From contig DATEHU010000034.1 of the NCBI GenBank assembly GCA_035279405.1, forward strand, positions 62,001 through 126,000: DNA of 64,000 bases, in the 5' to 3' direction. The translations under genes were made by a program, and so were the position numbers. Below, piece after piece: positions 4,919 through 55,973 of the stretch. This stretch comes from Gammaproteobacteria bacterium. GTDB lineage: Bacteria; Pseudomonadota; Gammaproteobacteria; Natronospirales; REEB76. Numbering within the stretch: the first letter of the stretch is position 1; each line of letters opens with the position of its first letter. The notes beneath the pieces were generated by a model. That model was not told where the DNA came from, made no database searches, and was given only the letters and a program-made list of their open reading frames with translations.

Positions 4919-5731
4919 ATGCGGTCCGCAGCGTTTTGGCCGCTGGTCATTGGGCTTGCGGTCGCGCCCGCGTGGACGCGCGCGGCGCCGGCCGTACATC
5001 CGGTGATCGCCGTCATCATTGACGATCTCGGCAACGGCCCGAGCGAGGGTCTGCGTGCGGCGCAACTGCCGGGGCCGGTGGCGTGCGCGATCTTGCCGCA
5101 CACGCCCTACGCTGTAATGCTGGCCGATGCCTGCCACGCGCGAGGCAAAGAGGTGCTGCTGCATCTGCCGATGCAGGGGCTGGATGACGCGCCGCTCGGC
5201 CCCGGCGGCATTTCACTCGCCATGACCGAAGTGCAGATCCAGAACACCGTGCGTGGCGACTTGCGCTCCATTCCCCACGCCGTCGGCGTCAACAATCACG
5301 AGGGCAGTCTGATCAGCATGCACCCCGGCGATCTCGCCTGGATCATGCAGACGCTGCATGCCACCGGCGGATTGTATTTCGTGGACAGTTACACCACCGC
5401 CGACAGCATTGCCTACCAGATCGCACGCGAGCACGGCATCCCGGCGGCGCGCCGCGACGTGTTCCTCGACGACGTCAACACCGAAACGGCGGTGCGCTTC
5501 CAGTTCAGCCGCTTGCTTGACATCGCGCGCCACAAAGGCTTCGCACTTGCCATTGGCCATCCGCGACCGGCAACGCTCGCGGTGCTCAACGCCGAACTGC
5601 CGCGGCTCGTGGCACAGGGCACGGAACTCGTGCCGGTGTCTGTCATCATCAGACTGCAGCAGCAGCATCCCATCCCTTGGCCCGAATCCCTGTATCCTTT
5701 ACCGACTCACCCGGCCAATCTGGCCCATTGA
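4919..5731 (+). CDS. yibQ: Divergent polysaccharide deacetylase family protein (YibQ)
   Basis: The 270-residue secreted protein starts with a signal peptide (cleavage near TRAAPA) and has the NodB-like fold of the divergent polysaccharide deacetylase family: IAVIIDDLGNG at the start of the domain, VGVNNHEGS in the middle and AIGHPRPATL near the end. The substrate is unknown; a glycan of the envelope is inferred. Its ATG lies 1 base after the ctpA stop, so the pair is translationally linked. Its 3' end overlaps by about 25 bases the convergent diiron gene. Confidence 0.88.
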   Translation: MRSAAFWPLVIGLAVAPAWTRAAPAVHPVIAVIIDDLGNGPSEGLRAAQLPGPVACAILPHTPYAVMLADACHARGKEVLLHLPMQGLDDAPLGPGGISLAMTEVQIQNTVRGDLRSIPHAVGVNNHEGSLISMHPGDLAWIMQTLHATGGLYFVDSYTTADSIAYQIAREHGIPAARRDVFLDDVNTETAVRFQFSRLLDIARHKGFALAIGHPRPATLAVLNAELPRLVAQGTELVPVSVIIRLQQQHPIPWPESLYPLPTHPANLAH

Positions 5732-6651
5732 TTCAGAGCATACGCGCGTACTCGCGTGTAGAAATCCGTATAAATCTGGTCGTAGGATTTTATCCGCGTG
5801 CTGCCTTCGCCCCAGAGCAGATAGCGGGACAGAAATGCGATCATCGGTGCCATCGTTTTCTGCACGCGCAGATTCAGGTCCAGTGGTTTGAGCGTCATCT
5901 TCACGCTCATGGCGTGGGGAAACTGCGGCCCCATGAGGTAACGGCCCCGTTTCTGGATGATCCGGTACAGGCGATTGTTGAAAGACGTGTTGGGATGCAG
6001 GATGCCGTAGGCATGTTTCAAGGCAATGCTGCTGTCCTCGCCGTCTATCATGCGCAAGCGGTGCAGGATCGTCCGGAAGATTTTCCAGCGGCCCATGTTT
6101 TCGCGTTTGCGGTAGCGCAGAAAATATTGGTAGAAATACTTGTAGTGCCGCACTTCATCTTCACGGATCAGCTGTGTGAGCAGGTGCAATACCGGCTCGG
6201 GGCTCAGGCGGCTCAGAGTGGTGTAATAGCTCGCGGTACCCATCTCCACGATGCAGCGCGACACCATTTCCAGGCAGCGGCTGGGTTCCAGCGCCTCAAT
6301 CACGCAGTTAGCGGAAAACTCCGCGAAGAATGCCTGGTATACCCGATCCCAATCAAAGTCCGGCCAGGCGGTTTGCACGTAGCGCTTGAGCGCGCGGCCG
6401 TGCTGCAATTCCTCATGCTGCCAGTGCTGCTCCAGCCATGCGGTCACTTCTTCATCGCCGGCGTAATATTCAATGAGATTGTGTGCGTAGGTGTCCGTGG
6501 CGGTTTCGATGAACGAGGCGGTGGTGAGGAGATAAAACAGTAGTTCCTGATCCGCGATCTGGGTACGGTCAAGGCTCTGCCACGGGATGTCATCAAGTGT
6601 CCAGCGTTGATGGATGGGCGAACGCCGGGGCAACGAGGAAACGGGGCTCAT
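5707..6651 (-). CDS. Ferritin-like diiron protein, acyl-ACP-desaturase-like
   Basis: The 314-residue protein has two carboxylate-histidine signatures of a four-helix diiron centre: HEELQHGRALKRY near residue 90 and EDEVRHYKYF about 80 residues later. The EExxHG form resembles soluble acyl-ACP desaturases and related ferritin-like oxidases. The substrate cannot be read from the sequence. The ATG at 6651 is chosen because upstream in-frame sequence looks non-coding, but no strong ribosome site precedes it. It is divergent from uvrD and overlaps the end of yibQ. Alternatives are an N-oxygenase (AurF-like) or a stress ferritin-like protein. Confidence 0.72.
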   Translation of the reverse strand: MSPVSSLPRRSPIHQRWTLDDIPWQSLDRTQIADQELLFYLLTTASFIETATDTYAHNLIEYYAGDEEVTAWLEQHWQHEELQHGRALKRYVQTAWPDFDWDRVYQAFFAEFSANCVIEALEPSRCLEMVSRCIVEMGTASYYTTLSRLSPEPVLHLLTQLIREDEVRHYKYFYQYFLRYRKRENMGRWKIFRTILHRLRMIDGEDSSIALKHAYGILHPNTSFNNRLYRIIQKRGRYLMGPQFPHAMSVKMTLKPLDLNLRVQKTMAPMIAFLSRYLLWGEGSTRIKSYDQIYTDFYTRVRAYALNQWARLAG

Positions 6652-48104: not shown

Positions 48105-51100
48105 ATGAATACTGTGTTGAAAGCCCACGCCGCCGCTGCGGCCGAGATTCCCGTGCAGGACGCCTCCGTCGATATCTGGGACAAGAAGTACCGCCTCAAG
48201 GCCAAAGACGGCACGGTCCTGGATGTGACCGTGGACGACACCTGGAAGCGCGTGGCCCGCGCCCTGGCCGACGTCGAGGCTCCGGAAAAGCGCGAGCTTT
48301 GGTACGAGAAATTCCTGTGGGCGCTGCGCCACGGGGCGATTCCCGCCGGGCGCGTGACCTCGAACGCCGGCGCGCTGGAACACAAGCCCGCGACCTCCAC
48401 CATCAACTGCACTGTGTCCGGCACCATCCGGGACTCCATGGATGACATCCTCGCCAAAGTGCACGAAGCGGGACTTACATTGAAGTGCGGATGCGGAATC
48501 GGATATGAATTTTCGACGCTGCGGCCGCGCGGTGCCTACGTGGCAGGCGCCGGCGCCTACACCAGCGGGCCTATGTCGTTCATGGATATCTACGACAAGA
48601 TGTGTTTCACCGTGTCTTCGGCGGGCGGGCGGCGCGGTGCGCAGATGGGCACCTTCGACGTGGGCCATCCCGACGTCATGGATTTCATCCGCGCCAAACG
48701 CGAGAACGGCCGACTGCGCCAGTTCAACTTGTCGCTCCTGGTCACCCACGATTTCATGGAAGCGGTCAAGGCCGACGGCGATTGGCCGCTCGCCTTCCCG
48801 CTGAAACAGAAAGAGGCGGAAGCGGACAGCATTGATTTGAATGACGCGTCGAAGGTGATCTGGCGCGAGTGGCCGGTCACCGAAGGTTACATCACCAACG
48901 CTGTTGGCCAGGTGGCTTGCAAGGTCTACAAGACCATCCACGCGCGGCGCCTGTGGGACGTGATCATGTCTTCCACCTATGACTTTGCCGAGCCGGGCTT
49001 CGTGCTCATCGACAAAGTCAACGAGATGAACAACAACTGGTGGTGCGAGAACATCCGTGCCACCAATCCCTGTGTCACGGCGGATACCTGGGTACAGACC
49101 GAAAATGGGCCGCGTCAAGTGCAAGACCTGTTGGGTGCCGGATTCGTGGCGCGAGTGGACGGTTCAGATCACCGCAGCGGCGTCGAAGGCTTCTTCCGCA
49201 CTGCCAAGAAACCGGTAGTCCGCCTGGAGACGGCGGAGGGCTACAGTTTGCGGCTGACCGCCGATCACCTTGTGCGCCGCGTAACACGTTTTACGCGCTA
49301 CGTCACCGACACTGAATGGTGCGCTGGCGGGGATCTCAAGCCAGGCGACCGGGTGCTCTTGAACGATCATCGCAGCAACTCAGATTGGGGCGGTGTACAT
49401 AACGAAGCGGAAGGTTATCTGCTTGGCCTGCTTATGGGCGATGGCACTCTCAAAGCCGACATGGCGGTGCTGTCCGTGTGGCGGCCCATGGCTGTGGCCA
49501 ACGGCGCCGAAGCGATGCTGCCCGCCGGTGTACAAGCGCTGATGCAGCGCGCGGAGCAGGCTGCGCAGGCATTACCGCATCGCAGCGATTTCCAGGGTTG
49601 GCACGAGGTGGCAGGCCGCGGCGAATACCGCTTGCAATCCGCTGCTTTGCGGGACTTGGCTTTTTCATTGGGCCTCAAGCCCGGCGACAAGTCCGTGACG
49701 CCGGCGTTGGAGCAATGTTCCAGCGAGTTCTACCTCGGGTTCCTGCGTGGATTTTTCGACACGGATGGCTCCGTGCAAGGCAGCCAAACCAAGGGCGTGA
49801 GCGTGAGACTTGCCCAGTCCGACTTGCCGCGGCTCGAGGCCGTGCAACGCATGTTGCTGCGTTTGGGAATAGCTTCGGTTATCTACAAGAACCGGCGGCG
49901 CGAAGGCACAAGTCGCCTGCCGGACGGTAAGGGCGGCTATGTCGATTACCCCATCCAGCCGCAACATGAACTCATGGTGAGCGGCGCGAACCTGCTGCGT
50001 TTCCGCGATCTCATAGGATTTGGCGACAGCGACAAGGTCGCCAAGCTGAATCGGTTGCTGGTTTCCTACAAGCGTGAACTCAATCGTGAACGATTCACCG
50101 CCCGCGTCACGGGCATAACACCCGTCGGTGTTGAGGATGTGTACGACGTACGGGTGCCGGGCATCAACAGTTTCGATGCGAACGGCTTGCATGCACACAA
50201 CTGTGGGGAGCAGCCGCTTCCGGAGTACGGCTCTTGTCTGCTCGGCTCGGTGAATCTCACGCAATTCGTGCGCGAGCCGTTCACGCCGCACGCGCGTTTC
50301 GACTGGGACGAGTACCGCGAAGTGGTGCGCGTGTTCACGCGCATGCTGGACAACGTGGTGGAAATCAACGGCCTGCCGCTTGCGCGTCAGCGCGAGGAAA
50401 TCCTGCGCAAGCGCCGCCACGGCATGGGTTATCTCGGCCTCGGCTCCACGCTCACGCTGCTCGGCATGAAATACGGCGCACCGGAATCGGTGAAATTCAC
50501 CGAGGACGTGTCGCGCGAGATGGCCGTGGCCGGCTGGGAAGAGGGCCTGGAACTCGCGAAGGAAAAAGGTCCGGCGCCCATCATGCTCGAGGAATTCGAA
50601 GTCACTCCGGAGATGCTGCGCAAGCGCCCGGAGATGAAGCGCGACGGCTGGAAGGTCGGCGACCGCATCAAGGGCAAGGACCTGCACGCGAGCTACAGCC
50701 GCTACATGCAGCGCGTCGCCCAAGTGGCGCCGGATCTGGTGGAGGCGCTCACCCACACCGGCGCGCGCTTCACGCACCACACCTCCATCGCGCCCACCGG
50801 CACGATTTCGCTGTCGCTCGCCAACAATGCGTCGAACGGCATCGAGCCCTCGTTTGCGCACCATTATTTCCGCAACGTGATCCGCGAGGGCCGCAAGACC
50901 AAGGAAAAGATGGACGTGTACTCCTTCGAACTCCTGGCCTACCGTGCGCTGGTGAATGCCAAAGCCACGCCGGGCTCCGACAAGCCAGAGGAAAAACTCC
51001 CGGAGTACTTCATCACCGCCGAAACCATCACGCCGCGCGAGCACGTGGACATCCAGGCGGCGGCACAGAAGTGGGTGGATTCCTCGATTTCCAAGACCGC

Positions 51101-51383
51101 GAACGTGCCCACGAATTATCCTTACGAGGATTTCAAGAACATCTATCTGTACGCCTACGACAGCGGCTTGAAGGGCTGTACTACGTTCCGCTTCAACCCC
51201 GAGGTGTCGTCGGGCGTGCTGGTGAATGAAAAAGACCTCAAGAACACCATTTACGAGTTCACGCTCGAGGATGGTACCGTCATCACCGCACGTGGCGATG
51301 AAGAAATTGAGTATGACGGCGAGATTCACACGGCAGCGAACCTGAAAGACGCCTTGGCCGAAGGCTATTACGGGAAATTCTAA
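48105..51383 (+). CDS. nrdJ: B12-dependent ribonucleotide reductase large part NrdJa, with intein
   Basis: This class II reductase makes deoxyribonucleotides using adenosylcobalamin. The 1092-residue precursor contains a 377-residue intein (residues 323-699), so the mature protein has about 715 residues. The extein carries CTVSGTIRDSMDDI, LTLKCGCGIGYEFSTLRPRG, the NP-CGEQPLPEYGSC block interrupted by the intein, and HHTSIAPTGTISL. The C-terminal redox part is missing here and is encoded by the next gene, as in the NrdJa/NrdJb pair of Pseudomonas. GGAGGA lies 11 bases before the ATG. Confidence 0.95.
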   Translation: MNTVLKAHAAAAAEIPVQDASVDIWDKKYRLKAKDGTVLDVTVDDTWKRVARALADVEAPEKRELWYEKFLWALRHGAIPAGRVTSNAGALEHKPATSTINCTVSGTIRDSMDDILAKVHEAGLTLKCGCGIGYEFSTLRPRGAYVAGAGAYTSGPMSFMDIYDKMCFTVSSAGGRRGAQMGTFDVGHPDVMDFIRAKRENGRLRQFNLSLLVTHDFMEAVKADGDWPLAFPLKQKEAEADSIDLNDASKVIWREWPVTEGYITNAVGQVACKVYKTIHARRLWDVIMSSTYDFAEPGFVLIDKVNEMNNNWWCENIRATNPCVTADTWVQTENGPRQVQDLLGAGFVARVDGSDHRSGVEGFFRTAKKPVVRLETAEGYSLRLTADHLVRRVTRFTRYVTDTEWCAGGDLKPGDRVLLNDHRSNSDWGGVHNEAEGYLLGLLMGDGTLKADMAVLSVWRPMAVANGAEAMLPAGVQALMQRAEQAAQALPHRSDFQGWHEVAGRGEYRLQSAALRDLAFSLGLKPGDKSVTPALEQCSSEFYLGFLRGFFDTDGSVQGSQTKGVSVRLAQSDLPRLEAVQRMLLRLGIASVIYKNRRREGTSRLPDGKGGYVDYPIQPQHELMVSGANLLRFRDLIGFGDSDKVAKLNRLLVSYKRELNRERFTARVTGITPVGVEDVYDVRVPGINSFDANGLHAHNCGEQPLPEYGSCLLGSVNLTQFVREPFTPHARFDWDEYREVVRVFTRMLDNVVEINGLPLARQREEILRKRRHGMGYLGLGSTLTLLGMKYGAPESVKFTEDVSREMAVAGWEEGLELAKEKGPAPIMLEEFEVTPEMLRKRPEMKRDGWKVGDRIKGKDLHASYSRYMQRVAQVAPDLVEALTHTGARFTHHTSIAPTGTISLSLANNASNGIEPSFAHHYFRNVIREGRKTKEKMDVYSFELLAYRALVNAKATPGSDKPEEKLPEYFITAETITPREHVDIQAAAQKWVDSSISKTANVPTNYPYEDFKNIYLYAYDSGLKGCTTFRFNPEVSSGVLVNEKDLKNTIYEFTLEDGTVITARGDEEIEYDGEIHTAANLKDALAEGYYGKF
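49071..50201 (+). mobile_element. LAGLIDADG intein in NrdJa
   Basis: The intein starts with Cys (CVTADTWVQTENG, block A), has block B in LRLTADHLVRRV, two LAGLIDADG helices (YLLGLLMGDGTL and YLGFLRGFFDTDGSV, both with the acidic residue), and ends VYDVRVPGINSFDANGLHAHN with the His-Asn pair before Cys+1. All splicing residues are present, so it should splice, and the homing nuclease looks intact. The Cys that follows is in the NPCGE motif, which in class II reductases holds the radical cysteine. Confidence 0.95.
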
Positions 51384-52496: not shown

Positions 52497-53339
52497 ATGG
52501 TCAAGAAGTTAAAAAAGCGGATCGCTGTTTTACTGCGTGATTGCGAAGAGACGCTCTCCTTGAAGTTTGTTTTGACAGTTCACGATCACCTTACCAAAGC
52601 GTTTGAGCGCACTGAAGACCCGATTTCTCCACCTGGCCTGAGAGATCAGGCTTTGCTTGAAATGGCCGTGTCCAGACAGGATGTTGGATTTGGCAACATT
52701 CGTAAGTATCCGAGTGCTTGTGCAAATGCTGCATCCTTAATGTATGGAATATGCAATGACCATCCTTTTCTAAATGGCAACAAACGCACTGCCTTAATAT
52801 GTGGGATCATGCACTTGGATAGAAATGGGCTTGTCTTTGAGGATGTGAGCAAGGACCACCTCTATCAGCTCATGATTGATATCGCTTCTCATAAGTTCTC
52901 AAGGAGCGACAAAGCTGATGGCAAATATGCAGATCCGAAGCCAAATTCGGACAAAGAAGTTGCTGCCATAGAAGTGTGGTTAAAGCAGCGCGTGAGGAAG
53001 ATCCAACACGGCGAGCGAGTAATAAGATACAGGGAGCTGTGGACAATTCTTCATAGATTCAACCACCTGATTGTTCAAAAGAATGAAAATACAGTTTCAA
53101 TCTATGTTGAAAGGTCAGGATTCTTTGGCATGGGTAAGCGGCAAAGTAAGGTGTACAGTTATCACAACCCTGGGGATGGTCGCGAGGTACCCAAGGGGCA
53201 AATTAAAGAATTGCGTGAGCACTTGAAACTGTCTGAAAGTGACGGCGTTGATGCAGTTAGCTTTTACGACAAACAAAAAATGATTGATGAGTTCATACTA
53301 GAGCATAGATCTGTCCTAAGATTACTCGCTCATGCTTAA
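52497..53339 (+). CDS. Fic/Doc family protein with extra C-terminal domain
   Basis: The 280-residue protein has the Doc-type Fic motif HPFLNGNKRTA near residue 88, preceded by SLMYGICND. The motif has Lys where AMP-transferring Fic enzymes have Gly, as in Doc, which phosphorylates EF-Tu. The first half (about 130 residues) equals a whole Doc toxin; the second half, with RYRELWTILHRFNH, is unrecognised. The gene is AT rich compared with its surroundings. No Phd-type antitoxin gene lies beside it, so inhibition may be intrinsic or by its tail. Confidence 0.82.
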   Translation: MVKKLKKRIAVLLRDCEETLSLKFVLTVHDHLTKAFERTEDPISPPGLRDQALLEMAVSRQDVGFGNIRKYPSACANAASLMYGICNDHPFLNGNKRTALICGIMHLDRNGLVFEDVSKDHLYQLMIDIASHKFSRSDKADGKYADPKPNSDKEVAAIEVWLKQRVRKIQHGERVIRYRELWTILHRFNHLIVQKNENTVSIYVERSGFFGMGKRQSKVYSYHNPGDGREVPKGQIKELREHLKLSESDGVDAVSFYDKQKMIDEFILEHRSVLRLLAHA

Positions 53340-53405
53340 TTGCTAATTGATAAATGAAATTAGAACAACCAAGGATAGACCACGTTTCTTTGATAGAGAT
53401 ACTAC

Positions 53406-54176
53406 GTGGATGTGAGCTTCGACAAATCCGTCGCCGCCGGATATAGAAGCCCCGCTCAAAAAGCTCGGGTGATGACGGAGTCGTGGGTTGGATCACAAGT
53501 CTACTGTCCAAGCTGTGGGCAGGGATCGCTGAACCAATATCCCAATAACACTCCGGTCGGGGATTTTTTTTGTCCGCAGTGCAGCGAACAGTTCGAACTC
53601 AAAGCAAAGCGGGGTACTTTTGGCGCCAAGGTAGTGGACGGTGAATATCGCACTATGCTTCGGCGACTGAGCAGCAGTGAAGTTCCGAACTTGTTTGCGT
53701 TGAACTATGACCAGACGCGAGGTCGCGTGCAGAATCTGTTAGTGATTCCAAGTCATTTCTTTGTACCGGAGATCATCGAGCGCCGGAAGCCGCTGGCCCG
53801 CACCGCCCGCCGCGCCGGCTGGGTCGGCTGCAACATCCTGTTCAGTCAAATCCCGCTAGCGGGACGTGTGAGTTTGGTATCGGAGGGCAGGCCGGTGAGC
53901 AAACCCACCGTTTTGGCAGCGTGGCAGCGCACTCTGTTCCTGCGGGATCAAAAGAAGGTTGAGGCCCGTGGCTGGACGTTGGATGTGATGCGTTGCGTCG
54001 AGCAGCTGAGCATGCCGGAGTTCAGTTTGGCGGATATTTATACTTACGAAGGCCGGCTTTCGAAGCTTCACGCCAATAATCGCCACGTCCGAGCTAAGAT
54101 CAGGCAGCAGCTCCAGGTACTGCGCGATGCAGGGTATTTGGAGTTCATCGGTCAGGGACGATATAGGGTGGTATGA
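53406..54176 (+). CDS. dpnI: DpnI-family restriction endonuclease (cuts methylated GATC)
   Basis: The 256-residue product aligns by eye with pneumococcal DpnI over its full length (254 residues). It keeps Zn cysteines C34, C37, C56 and C59, and catalytic D53, E64 and K66 (GDFFCPQCSEQFELKAK), the core RKPLARTARRAGWVGCN, and the C-terminal winged-helix NNRHVRAKIRQQLQVLRDAG, which also reads methyl-adenine. DpnI cleaves G-m6A-TC and spares unmethylated DNA, so the host should lack Dam methylation. No methylase gene accompanies it, as expected. The start is GTG. Confidence 0.93.
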   Translation: MDVSFDKSVAAGYRSPAQKARVMTESWVGSQVYCPSCGQGSLNQYPNNTPVGDFFCPQCSEQFELKAKRGTFGAKVVDGEYRTMLRRLSSSEVPNLFALNYDQTRGRVQNLLVIPSHFFVPEIIERRKPLARTARRAGWVGCNILFSQIPLAGRVSLVSEGRPVSKPTVLAAWQRTLFLRDQKKVEARGWTLDVMRCVEQLSMPEFSLADIYTYEGRLSKLHANNRHVRAKIRQQLQVLRDAGYLEFIGQGRYRVV

Positions 54177-54370
54177 ATATGTCGATTCGTGTACCCGCAT
54201 TTCTGGCCCGTTTTACACTGTGGATACAGCAGTTCACCGGTGGATATCTTGTCGTGTGTCGTGGATATAACGAAGACGACGTAAATTTCACCGAACTAGT
54301 CTGGGAAGACGATAAGGGTTTGGATTTCTGCGACAGACAGAGCTATCCGGAATTTCAAATCTGGATATAA
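54173..54370 (+). CDS. Small hypothetical protein coupled to the DpnI gene
   Basis: This 65-residue frame begins at an ATG that overlaps the DpnI-gene stop (ATGA). It reads RVPAFLARFTLWIQQFTGGYL then an acidic tail (NEDDVNFTELVWEDDKGLDF). No family is recognised. Coupling to the nuclease gene hints at a linked role, for example as a small regulator, but nothing shows this. A second ATG at 54179 could be the start. Confidence 0.45.
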   Translation: MNMSIRVPAFLARFTLWIQQFTGGYLVVCRGYNEDDVNFTELVWEDDKGLDFCDRQSYPEFQIWI

Positions 54371-54392
54371 CGGCATGGCTTCGGAGGACGAA

Positions 54393-54575
54393 ATGGAAAG
54401 ATATTATGTGTATCAATTTGACTCTGAGACATTTGTTGTCGGCGACGACGTGACTAATCGCGAAATCTGTATTTGTGGTGATTATGATGACCTTGCTGAC
54501 GCGCGGCAGAGAGCCAACAGAATCGCTGAATTGCTCAATGGCGAGCCTCAAGCTCGGCAGGTTGAACAACAATAG
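54393..54575 (+). CDS. Small acidic hypothetical protein
   Basis: The 60-residue product (MERYYVYQFDSETFVVGDDV ... DDLADARQRANRIAELLNG) has a strand-rich start and one helix. GGAGGA at 54383-54388 fits the ATG at 54393 well. No family is recognised. It follows the previous small gene by 22 bases in the accessory island. Confidence 0.5.
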   Translation: MERYYVYQFDSETFVVGDDVTNREICICGDYDDLADARQRANRIAELLNGEPQARQVEQQ

Positions 54576-54610
54576 TCTGGTTGAAATTGTTTATTGAATT
54601 TGGCGGAATC

Positions 54611-54937
54611 ATGAACGAGCATATTATTTCTGGCAATCAAGCGATTTTCGATCAGCAGGTGCTCCAATCCGAGTTGCCCGTGCTCGTGGACTATTGGGCC
54701 AAGTGGTGCGCGCCGTGCAAGGCCATGGCGTCGGTGCTGGATGAAGTCGCTGAGGAATACCGCGACCGGCTGCGGGTGGTGAAATTGAACGTGGAGCAGG
54801 AGCCGCAGATTGCACGCCAGTACTCTGTGCGTAGCCAGCCGACGCTGATGCTGTTCAAACACGGATTGGTGGAAGCCCAGAAAGTCGGCGTCCTATCCAA
54901 ATCGCAGCTCAAGGCCTTTATCGAAATAAATCTTTGA
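54611..54937 (+). CDS. Thioredoxin family protein
   Basis: The 108-residue product is a thioredoxin with LVDYWAKWCAPCKAM. The active site is WCAPC in place of the common WCGPC, and the cis-proline loop reads SQPTLMLF where thioredoxin 1 has GIPTLLLF. Such changes occur in TrxA paralogues and tune redox potential. The start at 54611 follows GGCGGA. It lies within the accessory island, and its GC content is nearer that of the core genome. Confidence 0.9.
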   Translation: MNEHIISGNQAIFDQQVLQSELPVLVDYWAKWCAPCKAMASVLDEVAEEYRDRLRVVKLNVEQEPQIARQYSVRSQPTLMLFKHGLVEAQKVGVLSKSQLKAFIEINL

Positions 54938-55076
54938 TATATGCCGGCGAAGCAATCGTAGGTTGGGCTGACGAAGGAAGCCCAACGATGATCACAGCCG
55001 CATGACCCGTCGTCTTCAACTAAACTAACACCACACGGAGGTTTTCGCTCCAGTCCAGACTAAGGGGTTATTCGGG

Positions 55077-55973
55077 ATGAGCTACACAGAGCTTGCGGCG
55101 TATCGCCATTGCTTTGATCGGATCACCTCGGCTTGGCCGGGGTTCCGGGATATGCATCGGGACCGGCTGCGGCACGGCGGTGAAAGCGAAAAGGTCGCGG
55201 AAGGCATTCTTGAAGACCTGTTCACGTCCGTTCTGGACTGGAGCCGGGGCGATCTCGCCTATCAGATCGAATACGCCGACATTGTCTTAAGCCACAATCT
55301 CGCAAAATACCTCGTCATTGAGGTGAAGCGACCGGGTTCGTTGGCCCGCAGCCGTCGTGCATTGGATCAGGCTCTGGAACAAGCCCGCCGCTATGCCGAT
55401 GCGCAGAAGATCATACGTGTGGCGGTATCGGATGGCTGCATCCTGTATGCCGCCGATATTGAGCACGGCAATCTCAAGGATCGTCTGTTCGCCGATCTGA
55501 CTGCCGACCAGGCCCCGAGCGGACTCTGGTGGTTGAGCGTCCATGGGGTTTACCGCCCATGCGAGGCGGTGGAACGCGGCTGGCACCTTTCTGAGCAAGA
55601 AGCGACAACGAGAGACGATACCGATCTCTTGGGCGATCCACTCCTGCATCACAAATACAAACTACCGGCGCGTTGCTTTGCGTACGTCGGCGACGCCAAC
55701 GACACGCATACCTGGAAACTCCCTTACCGTCTGGCCGATGGCCAGGTTGATAGCAAACGCTTACCCAAAGCCATCCAGGCATTGCTGAGTAATTACCGCG
55801 GTGCCAGGGTCGGCGGCATTCCTGAACCCGCAATCCCGGAAATCTTCAAACGTCTGGCTTCGGCAGCAGAAGCCGAAGGCCATTTACCTCCGAAGAATCC
55901 ACAACCCGCGCCAGCCTACCAGCATTTGCTGGAAGTGTTGGAACAACTCGGGATTTCTATTACTAACTTATGA
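55077..55973 (+). CDS. Putative PD-(D/E)XK nuclease-like protein (HsdR N-terminal-like)
   Basis: The 298-residue protein has a nuclease-like core: a Glu helix near residue 47 (EDLFTSVLDW), then YADIVLSHNLAKYLVIEVKRPG with D about residue 69 and E-V-K near 83, which fits the D-Xn-ExK pattern of type I restriction N-terminal domains. The C-terminal part (about residues 180-298) has no known fold. It has no translocase or methylase partner here. A role in defence is inferred from its position next to a DpnI gene. Confidence 0.6.
   Translation: MSYTELAAYRHCFDRITSAWPGFRDMHRDRLRHGGESEKVAEGILEDLFTSVLDWSRGDLAYQIEYADIVLSHNLAKYLVIEVKRPGSLARSRRALDQALEQARRYADAQKIIRVAVSDGCILYAADIEHGNLKDRLFADLTADQAPSGLWWLSVHGVYRPCEAVERGWHLSEQEATTRDDTDLLGDPLLHHKYKLPARCFAYVGDANDTHTWKLPYRLADGQVDSKRLPKAIQALLSNYRGARVGGIPEPAIPEIFKRLASAAEAEGHLPPKNPQPAPAYQHLLEVLEQLGISITNL

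Follow-up and report, generated by a model that had tools for sequence, protein, structure and literature searches.

A DpnI-type nuclease gene with a small candidate partner at a variable defence site in a gammaproteobacterium

The window analysed here, 64,000 nt of contig DATEHU010000034.1 (assembly GCA_035279405.1), to which coordinates refer unless another locus is named, comes from a gammaproteobacterium. Behind nrdJb, it carries a gene for a putative DpnI-type G6mATC-dependent endonuclease (53406..54176, + strand), followed on the same strand by two small genes, s1 (54173..54370) and s2 (54375..54575). A preliminary description, made from the sequence alone, had placed six open reading frames (ORFs) at 52497-55973 and read them as one island built around the nuclease; all six are present.

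The nuclease gene, which is single-copy in the host genome, has a GTG start and encodes 256 residues. Profiles and residues predict a PD-ExK catalytic domain and a C-terminal winged helix: the protein matches Pfam DpnI (PF06044, 5e-71) and DpnI_C (PF17726, 5e-29), the PADLOC profile mREase_II for methyl-directed type II enzymes (7e-98) and the solved DpnI structure (PDB 4esj, 1.4e-77), and is 45% identical to DpnI with both domains covered. Residue-by-residue mapping places D53, E64 and K66 as well as the zinc cysteines C34, C37, C56 and C59 at identical positions, as had been asserted beforehand. The catalytic role of the first three residues and the zinc role of the cysteines we take to be those of the 2012 DpnI structure. 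Across 87 homologues, D53, E64 and K66 are invariant or almost so, and that the gene is a DpnI homologue is near-certain from these comparisons. In DpnI, both domains sense G6mATC, and the fully methylated duplex is cut. The base readout and methyl-pocket residues (N48, R126, L129, R135, W138 and G140) are all kept in the window protein, as are K229 and R231 of the DpnI winged helix; the roles of the readout, methyl-cleft and winged-helix residues in DpnI have been described (PMC4117772). Judging from DpnI and from Drg of Neisseria gonorrhoeae, which by experiment cuts only G6mATC (PMC4269198), the window protein very probably cuts the fully methylated G6mATC duplex like DpnI, and these tested relatives (PMC4269198) lead us to expect that it would reject Dam-methylated DNA. 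One homologue from the gonococcus shares 41% identity with the window protein, and gonococcal records were the only ones with a full-length DpnI in the plasmid set.

The s1 gene encodes 65 residues if it begins in the ATGA that overlaps the DpnI stop (54173-54176), the junction to which the preliminary description had attributed coupling. Since M3 is the invariant start in the alignment of s1 and its relatives (family A), translation probably begins instead at ATG 54179, two bases past the stop, which would give 63 residues. The overlap thus exists, and the ATGA is probably not the real start; coupling to DpnI is likely whichever start is used.

To place s1 among DpnI loci, one genome per species was scanned, yielding 80 loci; Patescibacteria and other uncultured groups contribute many of them, and many belong to draft metagenome genomes. 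In 13 of the 80, a relative of s1 is encoded just behind DpnI, a position in which no other gene of the window block recurs. With the copies in genomes G001, G407 and G162 and that of the window, family A comprises 17 loci from several phyla, placed in every case directly behind DpnI or separated from it by one or two small genes. No family-A copy without DpnI was found in approximately 800 genomes. When 42 DpnI-bearing genomes were searched whole, no family-A genome had more than one copy, and that copy stood beside DpnI; in one further genome, the sole match was a weak one within a family-C protein (see below). In 379 genomes of one Patescibacteria phylum, family A occurs in 3, all adjoining DpnI or one small gene away, and all 3 are among the 10 genomes that match DpnI strongly (Fisher p = 1.3e-5). 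Among 369 genomes from the host's class, the window's own copy stands alone, and 44 genomes of a further phylum returned only two already known DpnI neighbours. The viral contigs, phage records and plasmid records searched contain no s1, and spread of s1 by phages or plasmids was rejected on that ground. The small gene had been proposed as an undescribed candidate partner to be sought beside other DpnI homologues, and it is indeed found there, in a family tied to DpnI. In these samples, s1 represents an undescribed protein family found only next to DpnI-type enzymes, and it is the new part of the locus.

The s1 protein is under purifying selection, since 11 aligned family-A sequences share 20 invariant columns and the ratio of nonsynonymous to synonymous change (pN/pS) is 0.10-0.35, with divergent synonymous sites. 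Its invariant core, C-x-GY..D....TELVW-x-DD..L-x-F.....YP..Q-x-W, is present in s1. Two family-A copies are broken, one by an in-frame TAG (L075) and one by truncation (L079). No Pfam family matches s1. From the single sequence, the fold model is poor (predicted local distance difference test, pLDDT, 44), and with 11 sequences it reaches pLDDT 75 and shows a strand, a helix and three strands. Chains of the DNA-mimic inhibitor p56 stand low in the Foldseek list at an E of about 2.6, which is not significant, and were not used. Mimicry of DNA by charge is not a strong candidate either, with family-A net charges of -6 to 0.

Clustering of the ORFs beside DpnI, combined with profile scans, gave at least eight small families in the slot that s1 occupies: A (s1), B (52 residues), C (approximately 145 residues), D (DpnD-PcfM), E (zinc-ribbon-like, in Bradyrhizobium and Devosia), F, G and H. 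One or more of them occur at 54 of 87 DpnI loci, a figure that is descriptive because the loci counted are also those that supplied the profiles; the phylum-wide searches with A and B are the test. For family B, 4 of 6 matches in the 379 Patescibacteria-phylum genomes lie beside DpnI (p = 3.6e-6), as do 4 of the 5 below E = 1e-6, and A, B or H stands beside DpnI in 8 of the 10 genomes with strong DpnI matches. Families B and C were not found in the viral contigs searched. A further small family outside A-H (68-95 residues, MKQYIFITPEG-like) lies near DpnI in L041, L013, L031 and L042.

In pneumococcus, dpnD directly follows dpnC. The slot behind DpnI is thus the place of pneumococcal dpnD, and family D (PF14207) is found right behind DpnI in L043, L057, L065, L072, L074 and L078. 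The pneumococcal DpnI system consists of DpnC and DpnD (PMC8515895); in the literature searched, we found no stated function for DpnD. Neither s1 nor one family-A relative matches PF14207 at E<=1, and the identification of s1 as DpnD was rejected for this reason. In L064, however, a family-C protein and a DpnD-PcfM domain are joined in one fusion, and s1 resembles a 38-column stretch of family C (hhalign probability 92), so that family A may still be remotely related, in pared-down form, to a DpnD-linked protein.

The remaining genes of the block, all on the + strand, do not share this association. Upstream of the nuclease lies a Doc-type Fic protein gene (52497..53339) with an approximately 140-residue C-terminal extension; the Doc-like character noted beforehand agrees with TIGR01550 at 42.0 bits (cut-off 38.65), Pfam Fic at 1.6e-10 and the motif HPFLNGNKR. 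No antitoxin-like ORF is apparent upstream of it. A thioredoxin gene (54611..54937) matches its profile at 3e-28, again as described. The last gene (55077..55973), called PD-(D/E)XK-like, has the D..ExK pattern, but its HSDR_N match is below threshold (17.1 bits against a cut-off of 25.1), and the assignment is plausible and weak. The s2 product (66 residues) is the third member of the cassette and is kept only in the sister species G001. Relatives of Doc, s2, thioredoxin and the HsdR_N-like gene are absent beside the 80 other DpnI loci, bar two chance-level thioredoxin matches. With four of the six genes unrelated to the neighbours of other DpnI genes, the idea of a single six-gene system was abandoned; only DpnI-s1-s2 recurs, in the one sister species. 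The same four were rejected as DpnI partners, s2 alone accompanying DpnI and only in G001. The description of a lower-GC (guanine plus cytosine) block fits Doc (0.44), s1 (0.44) and s2 (0.47) against a window mean of 0.62, but not DpnI (0.56), thioredoxin (0.55) and the HsdR_N-like gene (0.57), which are only mildly below it.

Within the host's genus, DpnI occurs only in the window genome and in G001, where DpnI-s1-s2 occupies the same nrdJb flank. The three proteins are 61%, 64% and 62% identical to those of the window while nrdJb is 93% identical, which points either to an old cassette that evolves fast or to two separate acquisitions at the same site. The thioredoxin gene in G001 comes after copies of a gene resembling a transposase associated with repetitive extragenic palindromic (REP) sequences; two identical copies of this type, L084:2802-3485 and L084:6377-7060, lie between s2 and thioredoxin and beyond thioredoxin. 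In G007, a sister species that lacks DpnI, the flank holds Dam-family methylase, ParB-like and PRTase-CE genes (L095:1037-3686) followed by thioredoxin (86%), so thioredoxin belongs to the residents of the nrdJb flank in this genus and is not linked to DpnI. The G007 methylase (L095:1037-1879) scores 206 bits with TIGR00571 (cut-off 115) and has DpnM as its nearest solved structure; the three genes together may form a modification or defence system that has no name yet. At one site within the genus, DpnI and a Dam-family methylase of putative GATC specificity thus appear to alternate. The nrdJb flank of G011, which belongs to a sister genus, includes genes for an M78-peptidase/macro protein and an adenylosuccinate-synthetase-like protein, among others. 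This row (L097:1063-5699), in which the peptidase-macro fusion is accompanied by a kinase fused to the adenylosuccinate-synthetase-like domain, DUF7002 and DUF3644, is possibly another defence or modified-nucleotide island. Because gene content differs among the window, G001, G007 and G011, the nrdJb flank is a variable hotspot for defence genes, in which the Doc-like and HsdR_N-like genes are most readily seen as further passengers. The nrdJ gene apparently contains an intein at the same position in the window (48105-51383) and in G001 (L084:9533-12802), with inserts that seem to differ in sequence.

A DpnI-bearing cell would be expected to lack a Dam-type methylase, because DpnI would require unmethylated GATC in its own DNA. 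The 97.6%-complete host genome has no D12-class (PF02086) or N6_N4 (PF01555) methylase, other methylase families not having been searched; both searches recovered known controls. GATC avoidance in the window was rejected, its 312 sites being close to the Markov expectation. Absence of these methylases and lack of avoidance are both consistent with unmethylated GATC sites in the host. As a general rule, however, freedom from D12-class methylases does not hold, since some DpnI-bearing genomes also have full-length ones, which could include binning errors. In L041, from a Flavobacterium metagenome-assembled genome, an apparently intact Dam-family methylase (4997-5998) ends right before an intact DpnI gene at 6001, and the DpnI-bearing genomes G113 and G123 (L125 and L124) have full-length Dam-like genes. 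If these enzymes are GATC-specific, DpnI would need to be held in check there. At six other loci, DpnI is directly preceded by an N-terminal stump (61-185 residues) of a CcrM/DpnA-like adenine methylase with a DPPY motif (L028:3481-4038, L039:2599-2991, L027:5768-6010, L007:5799-6017, L054:4556-4828 and L040:5803-5988), which looks as if DpnI replaced the remainder of an older restriction-modification gene.

Taking these data together, we lean towards a DpnI-s1-s2 cassette in a variable defence site behind nrdJb, with s1 as a dedicated accessory protein that modulates DpnI. The nuclease would cut incoming double-stranded DNA fully methylated at G6mATC, and the host would be safe by not methylating GATC. 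Encoded straight after DpnI and probably on the same message, s1 would modulate the nuclease, and our best guess is a brake limiting self-damage. That s1 acts on DpnI at all is, in our estimate, rather probable; the brake is a tentative guess with less than an even chance, made because s1 comes straight after the nuclease, because Neisseria DpnI is active without an A-H gene and because D12-class methylases occur in some DpnI-bearing genomes. Several observations weigh against this proposal. Most DpnI loci have no s1, and since the active gonococcal Drg has no A-H gene behind it, DpnI does not need s1. The s1 model has no match in PDB or BFVD at E<=0.001 (best VIA Z 4.3) and no fold match to any inhibitor. 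Distances among s1 proteins do track those among DpnI proteins (Mantel r 0.84, or 0.55 once the two host-genus loci are removed), which is in line with co-inheritance and speaks for the proposal, but linkage alone also predicts this.

Of the alternatives, the one that survives best, although we consider it unlikely, is that neither s1 nor the other small genes of the slot act through contact with DpnI; they would be independent small defence or counter-defence proteins that gain from a shared operon and act, for example, while DNA is taken up or against anti-restriction by phages. In keeping with this, the slot is used by several unrelated families, some of them together (A, H and B in L002, L019 and L075), as in mixed small-effector operons. 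Free effectors should however move independently, whereas family A is never seen away from DpnI and the strong family-B matches are mostly beside it. A bolder version of the modulation proposal, which we rate as doubtful and slightly behind the independent effectors, makes families A-H interchangeable DpnI-specific inhibitors or immunity proteins; nucleases that depend on methylation would then each be paired with a dedicated off-switch, letting a cell survive its own or acquired GATC methylation. If true, such families might explain the D12-class methylases in some DpnI-bearing genomes. It is improbable that the nuclease has drifted from G6mATC to another methylated motif or to relaxed SATS sites and is not a restriction enzyme for Dam-methylated DNA. 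The 45% identity and the D12-class methylases in some DpnI-bearing genomes would allow for drift, as would the relaxed flank specificity of the DpnI winged helix alone, mentioned in a passage of PMC11037411 that cites Siwek 2012; on the other hand, all tested catalytic-domain specificity residues are kept, and Drg at a similar distance keeps the DpnI pattern. Most improbable is that s1 is a hitchhiker or non-functional ORF kept through linkage to DpnI: it is small, lacks a fold or family match and has two broken copies, but its invariant residues and pN/pS indicate selection on the protein, and, of the two broken copies, at least that of L075 adjoins a DpnI gene that is itself frameshifted.

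Under the favoured proposal of a modulated nuclease, s1 bears on more than this locus. To our knowledge, DpnI has so far been treated as a stand-alone enzyme. In our broad sample, most DpnI genes have a member of one of several small families behind them, and one of these families was not found anywhere else; this ignored neighbour raises a testable general question, namely whether DpnI needs, or obeys, small partners.

Among known systems, the Doc-like protein shares with the death-on-curing toxin Doc of phage P1 an above-cut-off TIGR01550 match and the HPFLNGNKR motif; unlike P1 Doc, it has 280 residues with a C-terminal extension, has no recognisable Phd-type antitoxin beside it and is unlinked to DpnI elsewhere. 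Winged helices resembling DpnI_C without a matching DpnI catalytic domain, annotated as sigma-70 or unannotated, occur on Lactiplantibacillus plasmids (H3-H6) and on phage contig MT837571.1 (H7). DpnD/PcfM-like proteins are, like s1, small and located right behind DpnI in other loci, but s1 is linked to them only indirectly, via family C. As judged from its sequence, the window nuclease adds another member to the known enzymes DpnI and Neisseria Drg. With DpnI of Streptococcus pneumoniae (dpnC-dpnD; PDB 4esj and 4kyw) it shares the two-domain architecture, the residues and a second small gene, but that gene belongs to family A and the chromosomal site and flanks differ. Drg/NmeBII of Neisseria (dam replacing gene) is likewise a DpnI homologue of low GC at a site that holds dam in relatives (PMC4269198, PMC516771), but no A-H gene lies behind drg in the gonococcal record checked. 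The leuS/dam/drg arrangement (PMC4269198, PMC516771) provides a parallel from Neisseria, and the DpnI/DpnII cassettes (PMC12707154) one from pneumococcus, to the same-site alternation of DpnI and a putative Dam-family methylase behind nrdJb, which would extend these cases to another lineage.

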